A DNA stretch of 64,000 nt from Frateuria soli (GTDB lineage Bacteria; Pseudomonadota; Gammaproteobacteria; Xanthomonadales; Rhodanobacteraceae), in assembly GCF_021117385.1 (NCBI RefSeq), contig NZ_CP088252.1, positions 2,812,501-2,876,500 on the forward strand, given 5' to 3'. The notes under the pieces were generated by a model. That model did not search any database, was not told the DNA's origin, and saw only the letters and a list, made by a program, of their open reading frames with translations. Positions 3,222 through 10,280 of this stretch are shown piece by piece. The stretch's first letter is position 1; each line of letters opens with the position of its first letter. The position numbers were made by a program, and so were the translations under genes.

Positions 3222-3316
3222 GGCCTCTCCGGCGGCGCACGGGCGCCGTCGCAACATGCTGGGGAATGCGACCGGGCGTCGCCCGCGCATGCTAGCACCG
3301 TGGCTCGGGGGCTCCG

Positions 3317-3425
3317 CTGTAACAGCCGCACAGGTGTATCGCTGCTGTTACACCACGCGCCGGAGCCCGGCTGCACGCGGGCTGCAGCTCTTCACAGGCG
3401 ATCTCCACGCCGCCCGCTGTAACAC
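3317..3425. promoter_or_regulatory. Three TGTWACA boxes, candidate enhancer (UAS) sites
   Basis: TGTAACA occurs at 3318-3324 and 3418-3424, and its reverse complement TGTTACA at 3346-3352. The first sits in CTGTAACAG, which is palindromic apart from its central base. They lie about 80 to 185 bases upstream of the sigma-54 promoter at 3501, the usual distance for enhancer-binding-protein sites. The likely binder is the sigma-54 activator encoded at 8850-10196. This is inference from position and repetition. Confidence 0.5.
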
Positions 3426-3500
3426 CCGACGCGCGGGGCGTTCAGGCGCCGGGAGCCGGGAGGCCGCGCTACGGCGCGGTTTGGCCACTCCGTCGGGGGT

Positions 3501-3516
3501 TGGCACGGCGCTTGCC
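3501..3516 (+). promoter_or_regulatory. Sigma-54 (RpoN) promoter, -24/-12
   Basis: The sequence TGGCAC-GGCGC-TTGCC matches the RpoN consensus TGGCAC-N5-TTGCW in both conserved blocks and in spacing; only the last base departs. It lies 35 bases before the ATG of the first gene of the Fap-like operon, in the right direction. A sigma-54 activator with an intact GAFTGA loop is encoded at the far end of the same locus, which supports a working promoter. Confidence 0.8.
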
Positions 3517-3550
3517 ATCAGGGCAATCACCGAAGGAACGAGCCCACGCC

Positions 3551-4048
3551 ATGGAACCCGCATCTGCCTTTCCCCTCCGCCGCTGCCCGCTTCTGCCGCT
3601 CGTGGCCCTGGCGGCGCTCGTCGGCATGCCCTTGGCCGGTCTCGCAGCGGACGCGCACCGGGCCGTCGCGGCCCAGCCGGGCGACATCGTGGTGCTGCGC
3701 ACCGTCTCCACGCGGCCGGCGGCCCGGCCCGCGCCGCCGGGCATGGCGCTGATGGTGTCGCCCTCGCCACGACCGGAAATCCTCGCCTCGCTCGGCAACG
3801 GCGAGCTTTCCGACCAGGACATCGCGCAGATGGGTGCCTCGCCCTCGGCCGGGACACAACTGCAACCGACCGCCGCACGCACGCTCGACGGCATGCTGGT
3901 GCGCGACAACAGCGGCACCACGGTGGCCGGCAATGGCGTGAGCAACACCGTCGCAGCCCCGGTCGGGGCCGTCGGCAACGCGACCGGCACCATCGCCGAC
4001 CAGGTGCAGGGCGCGCTCACGCAACTGCCTTTCGGCAACGGGCATTGA
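3551..4048 (+). CDS. Small secreted protein, first gene of Fap-like operon
   Basis: I do not recognise a defined family. The 165-residue protein starts at the ATG at 3551, behind GAAGGAACG, and has a signal peptide (hydrophobic core about residues 13-33, likely cut near LAA-DA). Residues 86-96 read LSDQDIAQMGA, which resembles the LSxxELxxIxGG leader recognised by C39 peptidases; a C39 peptidase is encoded three genes downstream. The C-terminal third has Asn/Gly/Thr-rich stretches (DNSGTTVAGNGVSN and GNATG) like the amyloid-repeat proteins that follow. By position it would correspond to FapA or an accessory subunit, but sequence similarity alone does not show that. The next gene starts 4 bases after its stop. 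Confidence 0.65.
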   Translation: MEPASAFPLRRCPLLPLVALAALVGMPLAGLAADAHRAVAAQPGDIVVLRTVSTRPAARPAPPGMALMVSPSPRPEILASLGNGELSDQDIAQMGASPSAGTQLQPTAARTLDGMLVRDNSGTTVAGNGVSNTVAAPVGAVGNATGTIADQVQGALTQLPFGNGH

Positions 4049-4052
4049 AGCC

Positions 4053-4694
4053 ATGTGCCGCACGACCCTTCTTGCCTGTCTCGCCGGCCTTGCGGTGCTG
4101 GCGCTGCCCAGTACCCGCGCCCATGCCCGCGATGACGACTACGCGGCCATGCTCGGCTATCTCACCAGCAGCCATCTGGATGGCCATGTGCTGCAGGGCG
4201 CCGAAGGCAGCATCACGGTGAATCTGGCAGCAGGCGATCTCAACAGCCAGGCCAACCTGCGTGCGTTCGCCACTGGTCCGGATGCGCAGGCCTGGATCGA
4301 TGCGCGCCAGCGGACCGCAGGCAACCAGGCCAACGCGCCGCTGGATGCGCAGGCCACCATCGCCGGGCAGGTGCTTGCCGGCGCGCACGGACTGGTTTCC
4401 ATCAACCAGGTCAGCGGCAGCGCGAACACGCAGCTCAATGCGGTCGCCGCGGCGCTGGCCAGCCAGGGCATACGCGAGACGACGGACGGCTCCCTGTCCG
4501 CCGCCGTCTCCGCGTCGGCAGAAATGCAGCCGGGAACGGAACCCGACGCACCGGGCGAAGGCACGCGCAGCGTGTCGGTCGCCGCGGGCGCCATGCAGGG
4601 TTTCCGTGGCGTGCTGCAACTCAACCAGACCGCGGGATCGGGCAATGCCACGGGCAACATCCTGTCGCTGTCCGTGTCGGACCTGCCGCGGTGA
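4053..4694 (+). CDS. Secreted repeat protein, FapB-like minor amyloid subunit candidate
   Basis: The 213-residue protein has a signal peptide (hydrophobic about residues 5-18, cleavage near AHA-RD). After it come three imperfect repeats of the form G-x-hydrophobic-x-(L/I)NQ(V/T)(A/S)G(S/D)xNxQxN: ITVNLAAGDLNSQANLRA, LVSINQVSGSANTQLNAV, and LQLNQTAGSGNATGN. This spacing of Asn, Gly and Gln is the pattern of Fap amyloid repeats in Pseudomonas. The gene follows the previous one by 4 bases and precedes the larger repeat protein by 27 bases. Its smaller size and weaker repeats suggest a nucleator-type (FapB) rather than main fibre subunit. That role is inference. Confidence 0.6.
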   Translation: MCRTTLLACLAGLAVLALPSTRAHARDDDYAAMLGYLTSSHLDGHVLQGAEGSITVNLAAGDLNSQANLRAFATGPDAQAWIDARQRTAGNQANAPLDAQATIAGQVLAGAHGLVSINQVSGSANTQLNAVAAALASQGIRETTDGSLSAAVSASAEMQPGTEPDAPGEGTRSVSVAAGAMQGFRGVLQLNQTAGSGNATGNILSLSVSDLPR

Positions 4695-4721
4695 ACCGAT
4701 AAAAACCGGAGAGAGGACACC

Positions 4722-5873
4722 ATGAACGCTTCCACGAAGAAGACCCTGATCGCCCTGGCGGTCGCCACGCTGTTCGGCAGTTCGATGGCCTATGCCAGCG
4801 AGGGCGAAGGCCACGACCATCATCATTCGAAGATCGACTCGGCGGCCATCGCTTCGGTCGACAACAGCCAGTCGGTGACCGGGAATGTGGCCGGCAACGA
4901 CAAGCTGAGCAACACCAGCACCATCAAGGACCGCACCGCCGCCCGTGCCTCGGGCAACATCGGCATGAACGTCGCCGCCGGTGACAACAACGCGCAGGAC
5001 AACGCCGCCGCGCTGGCCGCGACCGACGCCAGCTTCACCTTCGGCATGGCGGACTCGGAGGTCTACGTTGGCCAGTCGGGCATGGGCAACCTCGTCGTCA
5101 ACCAGGGCGTCACCAACAGCGCCGGCGTGACCGACAACGCGTTCCGGAATGCCTCCGGCAACATTGGCGTGAACGTCGCCTCGGGCAACAACAACGAGCA
5201 GAAGAACGCGCTGGCCGCGGCGGTCGCCACCACCAAGTTCGCCCACGCGGGCGTCGATGCCAACCAGGTGTCCTCGGGCAACGTCGTGAGCAACGCCGGC
5301 CGCGTCGAGCGTTATGACGACACCACCACCGTCCGCCTGCGCGGTACCGTCTCGGGCTATTCGCTCGGCTTCGGCATCGGCGGCTACGAGGGCAGCACCA
5401 GCGGCAGCTACTCGGGCAGCACCTCGTCCGACAGCCGCGGCAACGCCTACCAGGCGAGCAATCTCTATCCGGATTCCTGGACCGGCGACTCCCATCCGGG
5501 TGGCTTCTCCACCGGTCACGTGGACTTCGACAGCGAGACCCAGGGCGCGGTCCAGAATCCGTACCGTCCGGGCGTCGGCGGCTTGGGCTTCGACACCGAC
5601 AGCCACTCCGCCGGCAGTGAGAGCGGCAGCATGCAGGGCAGCGAGTCCGGTCTGCTGGGCTTCGCGGAGATCTCGTCCAGCGAGCTGTTCGCCGACCTGT
5701 GCGGCACCGTGACCACCTCGCGGTACGTGGTGGTGGACGCCACCAACGACGCCAGCCTGTCCGGCAACGCCTTCCAGAACGCAACCGGCAACATCGGCGT
5801 GAACGTGGCCTCCGGCACCGGCAACCTGCAGGCCAACAGCCTGTCGATGGCCGTGGCGCAGCCCACCCCGTAA
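4722..5873 (+). CDS. Secreted repeat protein, FapC-like major amyloid subunit candidate
   Basis: The 383-residue protein starts with a signal peptide (residues 1-25, AYA-SE) and a strong ribosome site (GGAGAGAGG). It has three matching motifs, R1 about 78-100 (SGNIGMNVAAGDNNAQDN), R2 about 146-168 (SGNIGVNVASGNNNEQKN) and R3 about 356-378 (TGNIGVNVASGTGNLQAN). R1 and R2 are about 45 residues apart; R2 and R3 are separated by a long Gly/Ser/Tyr-rich, probably disordered linker of about 185 residues. This repeat-linker-repeat-linker-repeat plan is that of the Pseudomonas amyloid FapC. Unlike FapC I see no C-terminal CxxC; there is one cysteine, C327. Hairpins follow its stop. I infer it is the main fibre subunit. 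Confidence 0.7.
   Translation: MNASTKKTLIALAVATLFGSSMAYASEGEGHDHHHSKIDSAAIASVDNSQSVTGNVAGNDKLSNTSTIKDRTAARASGNIGMNVAAGDNNAQDNAAALAATDASFTFGMADSEVYVGQSGMGNLVVNQGVTNSAGVTDNAFRNASGNIGVNVASGNNNEQKNALAAAVATTKFAHAGVDANQVSSGNVVSNAGRVERYDDTTTVRLRGTVSGYSLGFGIGGYEGSTSGSYSGSTSSDSRGNAYQASNLYPDSWTGDSHPGGFSTGHVDFDSETQGAVQNPYRPGVGGLGFDTDSHSAGSESGSMQGSESGLLGFAEISSSELFADLCGTVTTSRYVVVDATNDASLSGNAFQNATGNIGVNVASGTGNLQANSLSMAVAQPTP
4950..5850 (+). repeat. Three coding repeats R1-R3 of the amyloid-like protein
   Basis: Each repeat encodes (S/T)GNIG(V/M)NVA(A/S)G followed by an Asn/Gln-rich turn and an Ala/Leu-rich strand. R1 is near 4953-5021, R2 near 5157-5225 and R3 near 5787-5855. R2 and R3 are most alike, sharing GNIGVNVASG exactly, with nearly the same flank (NAFRNA and NAFQNA). 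They mark the predicted beta-stacking units. Confidence 0.7.
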
Positions 5874-5905
5874 GACTTCGGCCAAGGCAGGCCAACGAGG
5901 GCGGT

Positions 5906-5965
5906 ACCCGGCTGTCCGCAGCCGGGTTCCTATGGAACCCCCCGGCCCGGCCCCTGCGGGCCGGG
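5906..5965 (+). terminator. Overlapping stem-loops after the FapC-like gene
   Basis: Three perfect inverted repeats follow one another: ACCCGGCT/AGCCGGGT (5906-5913 with 5920-5927), GGGTTCC/GGAACCC (5924-5930 with 5934-5940, overlapping the first), and CCCGGCCC/GGGCCGGG (5946-5953 with 5958-5965). There is no U-run, so this is more likely a partial terminator, pause or mRNA-stabilising structure than a full stop, since the peptidase gene begins 28 bases later. Confidence 0.6.
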
Positions 5966-5992
5966 GGGACTTCCTTCCAGTGGTGGAAACCC

Positions 5993-6694
5993 ATGCGACT
6001 GATCACACGGACCTTCCTGCTGTGCGGCCTCGCGATCGGCGCCCTGGCGTCCGCGCGCGCCGGCGAGGTGCGCTTCGGCGGCGTGTTGCCGAACGGCGGG
6101 CTGTATGTGCACCCCGTCGAGAGCATGCAGGAAGCACGCTTCCGCAACCTGGTCCGGCAGGAGACCGACTACAGCTGCGGCGCCGCCGCGCTGGCCACCA
6201 TCCTGCGCTACGCCTACCACCTGGACGTGGACGAGGCGGTCGTGATCCAGGGCATGCTCGGCGTGTCCGACGAAAACCTGGTCAAGCAGCGCGGCTTCTC
6301 GCTGCTTGACATCAAGCACTACGTCGAAGCGCTGGGCATGCGCGGCCGCGGCTACCGCGTCGATGAGTCGCGCCTGCGCAGCCTGCGCGTGCCGGGCCTG
6401 GTGCTGATGGACGTGCGCGGCTTCCGGCATTTCGTGGTGCTCAAGCAGGTCCACGGCGACACCGTGGAACTGGCTGATCCGATGCTGGGCAACCGCAGCA
6501 TGACGCTCGCCGATTTTCTCCAGGGATGGCCCTCGCGCGCCGTGTTCGTGGTGATCGGCAACGACTTCGACCGTCGCACCGTGCTGCTGCAACTCGAAGG
6601 CAAGGCCAGCGCGCGCGCGCTTTATGCCCGACAGGGACCGATCACTGACGCCGAACTGCTCGATTTCGGATTCAGCAACGCTGATTTGTTCTGA
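5993..6694 (+). CDS. C39-family cysteine peptidase, FapD-like
   Basis: The 233-residue protein starts at ATG 5993 and has a signal peptide (residues 1-23, ARA-GE), so it acts in the periplasm. The papain-like C39 residues are all visible: Q56 (oxyanion), C62 in DYSCGAAALATIL, H146 in GFRHFVVL and D162 in ELADP. It is a stand-alone peptidase, not fused to an ABC transporter as in bacteriocin exporters. Fap operons carry exactly this kind of gene (fapD) between the subunit and pore genes. The two flanking secreted proteins have double-glycine-like motifs that could be its substrates. Family assignment is firm; the role in fibre export is inferred from context. Confidence 0.8.
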   Translation: MRLITRTFLLCGLAIGALASARAGEVRFGGVLPNGGLYVHPVESMQEARFRNLVRQETDYSCGAAALATILRYAYHLDVDEAVVIQGMLGVSDENLVKQRGFSLLDIKHYVEALGMRGRGYRVDESRLRSLRVPGLVLMDVRGFRHFVVLKQVHGDTVELADPMLGNRSMTLADFLQGWPSRAVFVVIGNDFDRRTVLLQLEGKASARALYARQGPITDAELLDFGFSNADLF

Positions 6695-6706
6695 GGTACC
6701 CATGCC

Positions 6707-7480
6707 ATGTTCCGCCGTCCCTACTCCCTACTTGCCGCCGCGTTGCTGCTGACCCCCGCGCTCCACGCGCGCGCAGCGGACGCGCCCGGCGCCGGCCTGC
6801 ACGAGCTGGCCGATCCCGAGCTCAATGCCATGCGCGGGCGCTACACCATCGACGACCACACGATCGCCTGGTTCGGCGTGACGATGATCTCGACCTGGCA
6901 GACCGCCTCCGGCCAGCTGCTGCAGGGGACGCTGGCCTTCGGCATGGATTTCAGCAGCGGCAGCGGCCAGCCGACGCTGACCTTCACGCCCAGCGTGACG
7001 CTCACCCGCGCCGACGCCCCCGTACCGATGCCCGCCAGCGGCACCCGCAACGTCGACGGCAGCGGGCTCGCCAACGTTGGCGGCCTGCTGCAGAGCGTGC
7101 AGGTGGCCGGCGACGGCAACCTGGCAAGCAACGTGACCCGACTGACCATCCGCAACGGCGACGCACCTGCCACAGGCATCGCAGGCATCGCAGGCAGCGG
7201 CACCAGCGGTGCCAGCGCGAGCGACGGCAACGCCAGCGTGTCGGTCGGTTTCGACAGCCAATCCGCCGGCGTGCGACTGGCCATCGCCGGCCAGGGCACG
7301 GTGCAGCAGTGGATCCGCGACGGCAGTCTCGGCCAGAGCGTACAGCTCACCGCGGACGGCCAGAGCGTGAGCAACCGGCTGGAGATCGACCTGATACGCC
7401 AGGTCGCTCCCGCCAACGCACCGCTTGCGCTCAACGTGGCGCAGGCGATCGGCCTCACCCGAGGCATCGCAACGTACTGA
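6707..7480 (+). CDS. Secreted protein, FapE-position component
   Basis: The 257-residue protein begins at ATG 6707 (an ATG also occurs at 6702 in another frame) and has a signal peptide (residues 1-23, ARA-AD). Just after it, residues 34-45 read LADPELNAMRGR, close to the C39 leader pattern LSxxELxxIxGG, followed by YTIDD. The rest is rich in Ser, Thr, Gly, Asn and short beta-like strands, with no recognisable domain. It lies between the C39 peptidase and the outer-membrane pore, where Pseudomonas fap operons have fapE, an extracellular fibre-associated protein. I assign it by position and composition only. Confidence 0.6.
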   Translation: MFRRPYSLLAAALLLTPALHARAADAPGAGLHELADPELNAMRGRYTIDDHTIAWFGVTMISTWQTASGQLLQGTLAFGMDFSSGSGQPTLTFTPSVTLTRADAPVPMPASGTRNVDGSGLANVGGLLQSVQVAGDGNLASNVTRLTIRNGDAPATGIAGIAGSGTSGASASDGNASVSVGFDSQSAGVRLAIAGQGTVQQWIRDGSLGQSVQLTADGQSVSNRLEIDLIRQVAPANAPLALNVAQAIGLTRGIATY

Positions 7481-7529
7481 GCGCGCGCCACCGCCCGGTG
7501 CGCGTCCGGTCCCAGGGGAGATCACACAC

Positions 7530-8843
7530 ATGCAAAAGACCTTGTTAGCCACCGCGGTGGCCTGCGGGCTGTTCGTCGGCCTGCCCTTCGACCTTTCCGC
7601 CCAGGCGGCGCCCACGTTGCAGGACGAGGCCCAGGTGCAGACCCTGATGGCCCAGTTGCAGGCGCTGAAGGCCAGCTACGCGCAGCAGGTGCGCCAGTTA
7701 CGCGAACTGGACATGCAGGTACAGGCCTTGCAGGCCAAACTGGCCGGCAAGAGCGCGCCGTCCAGCCTGCCCGCGCCGGGCGGTACGCCGCCACCGGCAC
7801 AGGTGGCCCAGGCCACGCCTCCCGACGAAGGCAACCACGCCGGCAGTGCCGCCGAGGCGGAAGCCGCGCGCCAGGAGACGCCCACGCGCAGCCTCAAGGA
7901 TGCGCTGCAGCAGGAGCACGCGCTGTTCGACCGCAAGTTCACGCTCGAGAACAGCATCAGCTACGCGCGCTACGACCGCAACCAGATCACGCTCAACGGC
8001 TTCCTTGCGCTGGATGCGATTTTCCTCGGCAACATCGCCATCGAGGACGTCAAGTCGGACTCGCTCACCTACAACCTGGCCGCGCGCTACGGCGTCAGCC
8101 CGCGCCTGACCCTGAACCTGGACGTGCCCTACCTCTACCGCAAGACGGTCTACCAGAAGGGCGGGGCCGGCGGCTCGGCGGCGGCGATCGCGGAGGAGGA
8201 CACCACCGGCGCAGGCCTGGGCGACCTCGGGCTGAGCGCCAACTACAAGCTATTCGACGAGACCGGTACGCGGCCCGACACGGTGTTGACCCTGGGCATC
8301 ACTGCGCCGACCGGGCAATCGCCCTACGGCATCGACTGGAAGGTGCTCCAACGCGACGACGACCAGTACATCCGCTTCGCCGTGCCGGAGAAACAGCCCA
8401 CCGGCAACGGCGTATGGCAGGCAAACCTGGGCCTGTCGGCGGTCAAGACCATGGACCCGGCGATCATCTTCGCCAACCTCGGCTACATCTATTCGAAGTC
8501 ACGCGACTTCGACGACATCAATACCGATCCGGAAACGCAGAACCCCGGCTCGGTCAAGCTGGGCAACAGCTATTACTTCGGTGCCGGCGTGGCCTTCGCA
8601 TTCAACGAGCGCACCAGTCTGAGCCTGTCGTTCAGCGACAAGCTCACCGCCAAGGCCTCGTTGCGCTACAAGGGCTCGCCCTGGGCCAAGGTGATCGGCT
8701 CGGACGCGAACGCCGCCACCTTCAACATGGGCGTTACCCACGCCCTGAACCAGCACACCACGCTGGTCTCCATGCTCGGCATCGGGCTGACCCCGGACGC
8801 ACCGGACTTCAGCCTGACCTTCAAGATCCCCTACATGTTCTGA
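7530..8843 (+). CDS. Outer-membrane pore with N-terminal coiled coil, FapF-like
   Basis: The 437-residue protein starts at ATG 7530, eight bases after GGGGAG. It has a signal peptide (residues 1-26, AQA-AP), then a heptad-rich helix at about 33-72 (DEAQVQTLMAQLQALKASY and on), a Pro/Ala-rich spacer to about 125, and a C-terminal domain of alternating strands ending in FKIPYMF, with the terminal Phe typical of outer-membrane barrels. FapF of Pseudomonas is a trimeric barrel plugged by such a coiled coil and secretes the amyloid subunits. This is the last gene of the operon; its stop is 6 bases from the stop of the convergent regulator gene. Confidence 0.75.
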   Translation: MQKTLLATAVACGLFVGLPFDLSAQAAPTLQDEAQVQTLMAQLQALKASYAQQVRQLRELDMQVQALQAKLAGKSAPSSLPAPGGTPPPAQVAQATPPDEGNHAGSAAEAEAARQETPTRSLKDALQQEHALFDRKFTLENSISYARYDRNQITLNGFLALDAIFLGNIAIEDVKSDSLTYNLAARYGVSPRLTLNLDVPYLYRKTVYQKGGAGGSAAAIAEEDTTGAGLGDLGLSANYKLFDETGTRPDTVLTLGITAPTGQSPYGIDWKVLQRDDDQYIRFAVPEKQPTGNGVWQANLGLSAVKTMDPAIIFANLGYIYSKSRDFDDINTDPETQNPGSVKLGNSYYFGAGVAFAFNERTSLSLSFSDKLTAKASLRYKGSPWAKVIGSDANAATFNMGVTHALNQHTTLVSMLGIGLTPDAPDFSLTFKIPYMF

Positions 8844-8849
8844 GCAGGT

Positions 8850-10196
8850 TCAAGACGTGGCCTGGGCCAGCTTGTCCAGCGCCACGCCATGCTTTTTGCA
8901 CAGGCGGTAGATCGTGACCCGCGCGACGCCCAGCCGCCGCGCGCATTCGCTGACGTTGAAGCGGGTATCGCGCAGGCAGGCGACCAGCGCGTCGCGCTCG
9001 GCCGTCACGCGCACGCGGTCCAGCGCCGCCGGCGCATGACCGGGGCGCACCGGCAGGTCCAGGTCGTGCACGCTGATCAGGGAATCTTCGGCCACCACGG
9101 CCGCCCGCTGCACGCGATTGATGAGCTCGCGCACGTTGCCCGGCCAGCTGAACGCACGCAGCGCGCGGCGCGCCGCCGCGCTGAAGGCCTGCGCGCGACA
9201 TCCGTGCTGTTCGCGGAAGACGTCCAGGAAATGCTGTGCCAGCAGTTCCACGTCGCCGCCGCGCTCGCGCAGCGAGGGCATCTGCACGCGCAACACGTTG
9301 AGCCGGTAATAGAGGTCCTGGCGGAAGCGCCCGGCGGCAACGGCCTTTTCCATGTCCACATGGGTGGCAGCCAGCACGCGCACGTCCGCGCGCAGGCTAT
9401 GGCTGCTGCCGACCCGCACGATCGTGCCCTCCTGCAGGAAGCGCAGCAGGCTGGTCTGGGCATCCAGCGGCAGGTCGCCGATCTCGTCCAGAAATACAGT
9501 GCCGCCGCTTGCGCTCTCGATATGGCCGATGCGGCGGGTGGTGGCGCCGGTGAAGGCACCGCGTTCGTGACCGAACAGTTCCGATTGCACCAGGTTGGCC
9601 GGCAGCGCACCGCAGTTGATCGCCACGAACAGATGCTCCGCCCGTGGCGACAGCTGGTGGATGACGCGCGCGGCCACTTCCTTGCCAGTGCCCGTCTCGC
9701 CGGTGACGAGCACCGGCAGGTCCACCGGCGCGTACTTGCGCAAGCCGACGCGCAAGGTGCGCATCGCCTCACTGGCGCCGACCAGCCCCGGCATGTCCGG
9801 CTCACTGCGCGCGGGCACGCCGCCCTGCGCCAGGCGATCCAGCGATTCGCGCAGCCGCGGGAAATCGATGGGGCTGGTGAACACCGCCATGCAGTCGCGC
9901 AGGATCGAGGTTGCGCGGGGTTCGTGGGCGGGCGTCTCGGGCGAGACCAGGGCGATCCAGGGCACGCCAGGGTGCTCGGCGACCATGTCTTCCATCGCCT
10001 CCAGCGTGTCGGGATCGTCCTGGCGCAGGTCGGCCAGCGCAACCACGACGTCGCCATTGCGGGCACCCACGCCACTTGCCTTCACGTCGGCCACGCGCAC
10101 GGGCCACCCGGAACGGGCCAGTCCGTTGCGTTCCATGTCGTCGGGTCGTCCGAACCAGACGACGCAGCGTCTGGGTAATGTCAATGCCGCGTTCAT
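8850..10196 (-). CDS. Sigma-54-dependent enhancer-binding transcriptional activator
   Basis: The 448-residue protein has an N-terminal receiver-like domain (1-125) lacking the usual acidic cluster, a AAA+ domain (about 138-365) and a Fis-type helix-turn-helix (about 405-445, ECARRLGVARVTIYRLCKKHG). Visible motifs: Walker A GETGTGKE 166-173, the sigma-54 contact loop GAFTGA 213-218, and Walker B GTVFLDEIG. I use ATG 10196 because GGAGG lies 5 bases upstream; GTG at 10202 would sit on top of it. The architecture is like VpsR-type biofilm regulators. It faces the Fap-like operon tail to tail and is the obvious activator of the RpoN promoter at 3501, acting perhaps through c-di-GMP rather than phosphorylation. 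Confidence 0.85.
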   Translation of the reverse strand: MNAALTLPRRCVVWFGRPDDMERNGLARSGWPVRVADVKASGVGARNGDVVVALADLRQDDPDTLEAMEDMVAEHPGVPWIALVSPETPAHEPRATSILRDCMAVFTSPIDFPRLRESLDRLAQGGVPARSEPDMPGLVGASEAMRTLRVGLRKYAPVDLPVLVTGETGTGKEVAARVIHQLSPRAEHLFVAINCGALPANLVQSELFGHERGAFTGATTRRIGHIESASGGTVFLDEIGDLPLDAQTSLLRFLQEGTIVRVGSSHSLRADVRVLAATHVDMEKAVAAGRFRQDLYYRLNVLRVQMPSLRERGGDVELLAQHFLDVFREQHGCRAQAFSAAARRALRAFSWPGNVRELINRVQRAAVVAEDSLISVHDLDLPVRPGHAPAALDRVRVTAERDALVACLRDTRFNVSECARRLGVARVTIYRLCKKHGVALDKLAQATS

Positions 10197-10280
10197 CGCC
10201 ACCTCCGCCCCTGACGGAATGTCCTGTGTCGATCAGCCGGTGGGTCCCAGCTGCAATGCCGCCCTTCCGGGGCGACGGAC

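Follow-up and report, generated by a model that had tools for sequence, protein, structure and literature searches.

A predicted RpoN promoter before the functional amyloid operon of Frateuria soli, and a structured RNA retained in relatives without fapF

The window considered here, the whole stretch of 64,000 nucleotides of Frateuria soli DNA that was analysed, contains what is, judged by its gene content, a complete fapABCDEF functional amyloid operon (3551–8843). Each of the NCBIfam models for FapA to FapF matches its own gene, in order, with the curated cut-off passed by FapC only. The first-pass annotation had seen a secreted-protein operon at this place without recognising it as fap, and had missed both a set of palindromes upstream (3316–3426) and a structured RNA within the operon (5876–5973). 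The features are as follows.

3316–3326, + strand: candidate UAS palindrome 1, GCTGTAACAGC; conserved in relatives
3344–3354, + strand: candidate UAS palindrome 2, GCTGTTACACC; conserved in relatives
3416–3426, + strand: candidate UAS palindrome 3, GCTGTAACACC; conserved in relatives, 74 nt 5′ of the −24 element
3501–3516, + strand: predicted RpoN (−24/−12) promoter, TGGCACGGCGCTTGCC; predicted transcription start near 3527
3551–4048, + strand: fapA-like (chaperone); NCBIfam NF058617, E = 2.7e-10, under the curated cut-off
4053–4694, + strand: fapB-like (minor amyloid subunit); NCBIfam NF058557, E = 3.5e-26, under the cut-off
4722–5873, + strand: fapC (amyloid subunit); NCBIfam NF058558, 196.8 bits (cut-off 195); PDB FapC 9u4u, E = 1.8e-16
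5876–5973, + strand: conserved three-hairpin RNA of ∼100 nt between fapC and fapD; model R1, 71.3 bits, with covariation
5993–6694, + strand: fapD-like (C39 peptidase); Pfam PF03412, E = 7.6e-19; NCBIfam NF058616, E = 3e-75
6707–7480, + strand: fapE-like; NCBIfam NF058559, E = 5.9e-31
7530–8843, + strand: fapF (outer-membrane amyloid transporter); PDB FapF (Pseudomonas) 5o65, E = 8.5e-86; NCBIfam NF058560, E = 7.6e-120
8850–10202, − strand: BrfA-like enhancer-binding protein (EBP); VpsR domain, sigma-54 AAA+ domain with GAFTGA, Fis-type HTH

Two observations concern FapF alone. A second, distant FapF-like protein (24–30% identity) is encoded elsewhere in most genomes of the family; the FapF of the window scores against NCBIfam FilC too, so membership of a related export system is possible.

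The sequence TGGCACGGCGCTTGCC agrees with TGGCAC-N5-TTGCW at 10 of 11 bases, and its two elements have N10 spacing (GG at 3502–3503, GC at 3514–3515). The earlier description of a near-perfect RpoN promoter in which only the last base departs from consensus is therefore correct; its placement 35 bases before the first ATG is right as to location, the measured gap to the fapA ATG at 3551 being 34 nt. The final C is no real departure: other near-perfect sites of the genome end in TTGCC as well, and so do the majority of related fap promoters. Window-wide counts alone do not make the site significant: with up to two mismatches the RpoN pattern occurs 33 times in the 64 kb against 33.2 expected, and three matches have at most one mismatch. 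The first-pass argument that a match of 10 of 11 bases at the right place is unlikely to be chance is thus weak on its own, and the significance of the site derives instead from its position and conservation.

The genome of this strain (3.49 Mb) has one copy of rpoN and matches TGGCAC-N5-TTGCH at 12 sites, the reversed pattern at one. Several of the 12 precede frames which we take to resemble usual RpoN targets, for example glutamine synthetase and flagellar genes. Near-perfect sites at G000:C1:323981 and 2512818 (L002, L009) precede genes with a membrane-fusion (efflux)-like start; these would be unusual RpoN targets, if such they are. A search for a sigma-70-like promoter between 3200 and 10400 found none.

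Related genomes were scanned for the site, a check that the first-pass annotation had itself proposed, and the result bears the promoter out. A site matching at least 9 of 11 bases lies upstream of fapA in 25 of 27 loci (1.65% of dinucleotide shuffles), and one matching at least 10 in 21 of them (0.11% of shuffles), 46–61 bp 5′ of the fapA start. The −24/−12 site before fapA recurs across genera and in two families. One locus (L072) has a weak site only (8/11), and at another (L074) the site was missed through start-codon choice. Among distant fap loci, five (L150, from Shewanella basaltis, and L231, L232, L234 and L235) carry the EBP gene upstream of fap with a 10–11/11 site between the two, while L230 has a 10/11 site before fapB and the EBP gene downstream.

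Upstream of the promoter, at a distance of 75–185 bp, stand three copies of GSTGTWACASC (at 3316, 3344 and 3416). These palindromes are kept at similar distances in relatives while the remaining sequence diverges. The genome has a single occurrence of the spaced pair TGTAACA-N4-30-TGTTACA, and of the 12 near-perfect RpoN sites the one before fapA is alone in having near-perfect palindromes within 300 bp. Across the family, 46 of 233 genomes contain the composite TGTWACA-N55-85-TGGCAY-N5-TTGC, compared with 3 for the reversed pattern. A second perfect palindrome, at genome position 1207919, lies inside an open reading frame and was taken as chance; among the fap loci read outside the order, none with a zero-mismatch palindrome was found. 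The palindromes are likely to be the enhancer of the fap promoter.

The EBP gene lies 3′ of fapF and is convergent with fap. The first-pass annotation had correctly noted an enhancer-binding protein with GAFTGA, but gave its extent as 8850–10196: there is an ATG at 10196, and the frame extends to a GTG start at 10202. Walker motifs and GAFTGA are intact here and are kept across relatives, with GSFTGA in a few; an EBP of genus g10 is one that reads GSFTGA. VpsR-type proteins activate promoters with sigma-70, and GAFTGA is for this reason no proof of RpoN use. Clear orthologues are present in 26 of 61 genomes (this one included), usually with an aminotransferase gene on one side and an SDR gene on the other; in many, fap lies between the aminotransferase gene and the EBP gene. 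Across the family, 121 of 233 genomes have an orthologue. The EBP moves with fap in distant gammaproteobacterial loci, including that of S. basaltis, in varying orientation. Synteny and domain search (a reverse gene after fapF, with the domains of an EBP) correspond to what is known of BrfA, and by this analogy the product may be called BrfA-like.

The RNA between fapC and fapD is predicted to fold into three hairpins, with a conserved single-stranded GAGGGCGGUAA and C-rich loops. Pairing holds in 96.7% of cells in an alignment of 47 distinct sequences, and 23 of 31 pairs show changes on both sides; 0 of 500 shuffles reach the observed values, and slid versions drop to 33–64%. That alignment was fitted to the model, but 14 sequences aligned with MAFFT gave a similar indication. 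No Rfam 15 family reaches its gathering threshold for the window RNA or its relatives, and a known riboswitch or RNA family was rejected on this ground. A dispersed repeat was rejected in view of the single copy per genome, and a terminator shared with the EBP gene was rejected, the two being about 3 kb apart in fap-bearing loci. Pairing of the loops (CCCCUG) with a GGGG-type Shine-Dalgarno sequence of fapA was considered by eye; the fapA of the window is without GGGG, and such pairing is not claimed.

Model R1 matches once in each of 70 of the 233 family genomes, all of which fall within the 121 EBP-positive genomes. A true FapF gene is present in 26 of the 70 and in none of the other 44. In 398 genomes of the order, a sample drawn so as to include the family, there are two matches outside it, both in family f2 and both in the fapC–fapD gap; Stenotrophomonas rhizophila and S. 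nitritireducens have weaker matches in the same gap. Fap operons from beyond the order yielded no convincing copy.

Several relatives have the EBP gene with no fap beside it, Dyella monticola and D. lipolytica being named RNA carriers of this kind, and in these the RpoN site is retained and the conserved RNA follows. When the 500 nt before the RNA were scanned in fapF-less loci, a site of at least 9/11 was present in 37 of 37 and one of at least 10/11 in 34 (0.5% for 10/11 sites in shuffles, none in downstream controls); three pairs (L089/L143, L091/L141 and L095/L142) give identical results and are probably duplicate genomes, leaving 34 distinct loci. In D. monticola (L141) and in L098, L099 and L059 the site stands 26–40 nt 5′ of the RNA, and the predicted transcript therefore starts at or just before it. 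In genus g13, with 20 fapF-less species, mean pairwise identity is 95% for the RNA, 86% for the RpoN site and 34–60% for the surrounding segments. On a tree of the EBP, well-supported branches account for at least 4 changes in the presence of fap, and the total is 7; since fap gene remnants are also present in some loci, repeated loss of fap in the relatives is most likely.

Some particulars of these loci deserve mention. The g13 leader before the RNA (L111–L140) seems to include a broken fapC-repeat remnant, whose conserved inverted repeat, GCCAGCTGCGA/TCGCAGCTGGC, would by prediction pair into a long helix. The idea that the g13 promoter drives a conserved small protein was rejected, the reading frames not being conserved. 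In genus g10 (L070, L071, L106–L109) the RNA is a short, diverged version, its terminal stem followed by TTTTCTTTT; it has a strong terminator, whereas the terminator of the RNA is weak outside g10, lies directly 3′ of the UAS and RpoN promoter, and adjoins the EBP gene.

The RNA is selected for its structure and stays together with the promoter and EBP where FapF is gone. Because all three outlive the fap genes in many relatives, we lean towards reading it as a new RpoN-controlled small regulatory RNA, which would stand alone with its promoter and EBP after repeated amyloid loss. On a rather less probable reading, the RNA acts only in cis within the fap mRNA, as an attenuator or as a 3′ stabiliser that sets fapABC against fapDEF, and the stand-alone copies are decaying leftovers. 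Its position between fapC and fapD in Xanthomonadaceae too, the fap remnants in some loci and, in fap loci, a hairpin 3 followed by few T would all suit such an element. Decaying leftovers, however, would sit poorly with the near-identity of the RNA across the g13 species amid diverged surroundings, or with an RpoN site kept in every fapF-less locus examined. The tails after hairpin 3 are also T-richer in fapF-less loci, as though turned into a terminator (4.6 T in 12 nt against 2.2, in related genomes that are non-independent samples). A trans-acting small RNA thus appears the best account of the retention, and an attenuator between fapC and fapD would be compatible with it as a second role.

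Small RNAs that depend on RpoN and an EBP are established in Qrr1/LuxO, GlmY/GlrR and CrcZ/CbrB. As in these, a short structured RNA lies behind an RpoN promoter with a UAS, and in fap-less loci it adjoins the EBP gene; unlike them, it is without an Rfam match and, where fap is present, lies inside an amyloid operon.

For the locus as a whole we propose, with a probability of about 0.9, that 3501–3516 is the RpoN promoter of fapABCDEF, activated by the convergent VpsR-domain EBP via the GSTGTWACASC palindromes. The product of 8850–10202 would bind the palindromes upstream of the promoter, probably when c-di-GMP is high (a signal suggested by analogy with BrfA), and the bound protein would open RpoN-polymerase at 3501–3516. 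Transcription would begin near 3527, and the fap transcript would carry the structured RNA between fapC and fapD as well; as a small RNA, it would probably also be under c-di-GMP control. Activation by the neighbouring EBP, as the first-pass annotation had suggested, is supported by the conserved site, the presence of rpoN, the linkage of EBP and fap, and the precedent of Pseudomonas fluorescens (PMC9207406).

It is improbable that the promoter is real but answers to one of the six other full-length EBPs of the genome: the genome encodes seven proteins whose sigma-54 activation domain is strong, and EBPs need not be neighbours of their targets, but the product of 8850–10202 accompanies fap at nearly all loci despite its varying orientation, and is the one kept with the promoter upon fap loss. 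A chance match, with fap transcribed from some unrelated promoter, is more improbable still: near matches are indeed common in this GC-rich window, but the fixed position and conservation in 25 of 27 loci, and the failure to find a sigma-70-like promoter between 3200 and 10400, speak against it.

The proposed RpoN promoter with its neighbouring EBP has a close counterpart. In P. fluorescens PF07 a −24/−12 promoter of fapA was mapped by 5′-RACE, mutants of rpoN and of brfA lose expression of fap, and brfA lies downstream of fapF in reverse orientation (PMC9207406). BrfA has been reported as a c-di-GMP sensor (PMC13101488), and in another P. fluorescens fap is lowered in an rpoN mutant (PMC8202526). 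Given that the P. fluorescens fapA promoter is RpoN/BrfA-controlled (PMC9207406), the promoter described here belongs to a known kind: both systems have a −24/−12 element before fapA and an adjacent convergent EBP gene after fapF, and a requirement for RpoN would be expected here as in PF07. Unlike PF07, the host belongs to the Rhodanobacteraceae, the UAS is a palindromic triplet and an RNA lies between fapC and fapD; also unlike PF07, the fap genes have often disappeared from genomes that keep the promoter, EBP and RNA. The gene order fapABCDEF is that of the Fap operons of Dueholm et al. 2013, who named Rhodanobacter and Stenotrophomonas among fap carriers and whose main text mentions neither RpoN, sigma nor a hairpin (PMC3792158).

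Control of a biofilm amyloid by RpoN and an EBP, as described in Pseudomonas, is hereby extended to a second large group, and its likely enhancer sequence is named. What is new is a structured RNA that survives loss of its host operon: its persistence would explain why many fap-less species retain the activator. If the small RNA reading is true, these loci are a natural case, directly testable, in which an sRNA gene is what an operon has decayed to.
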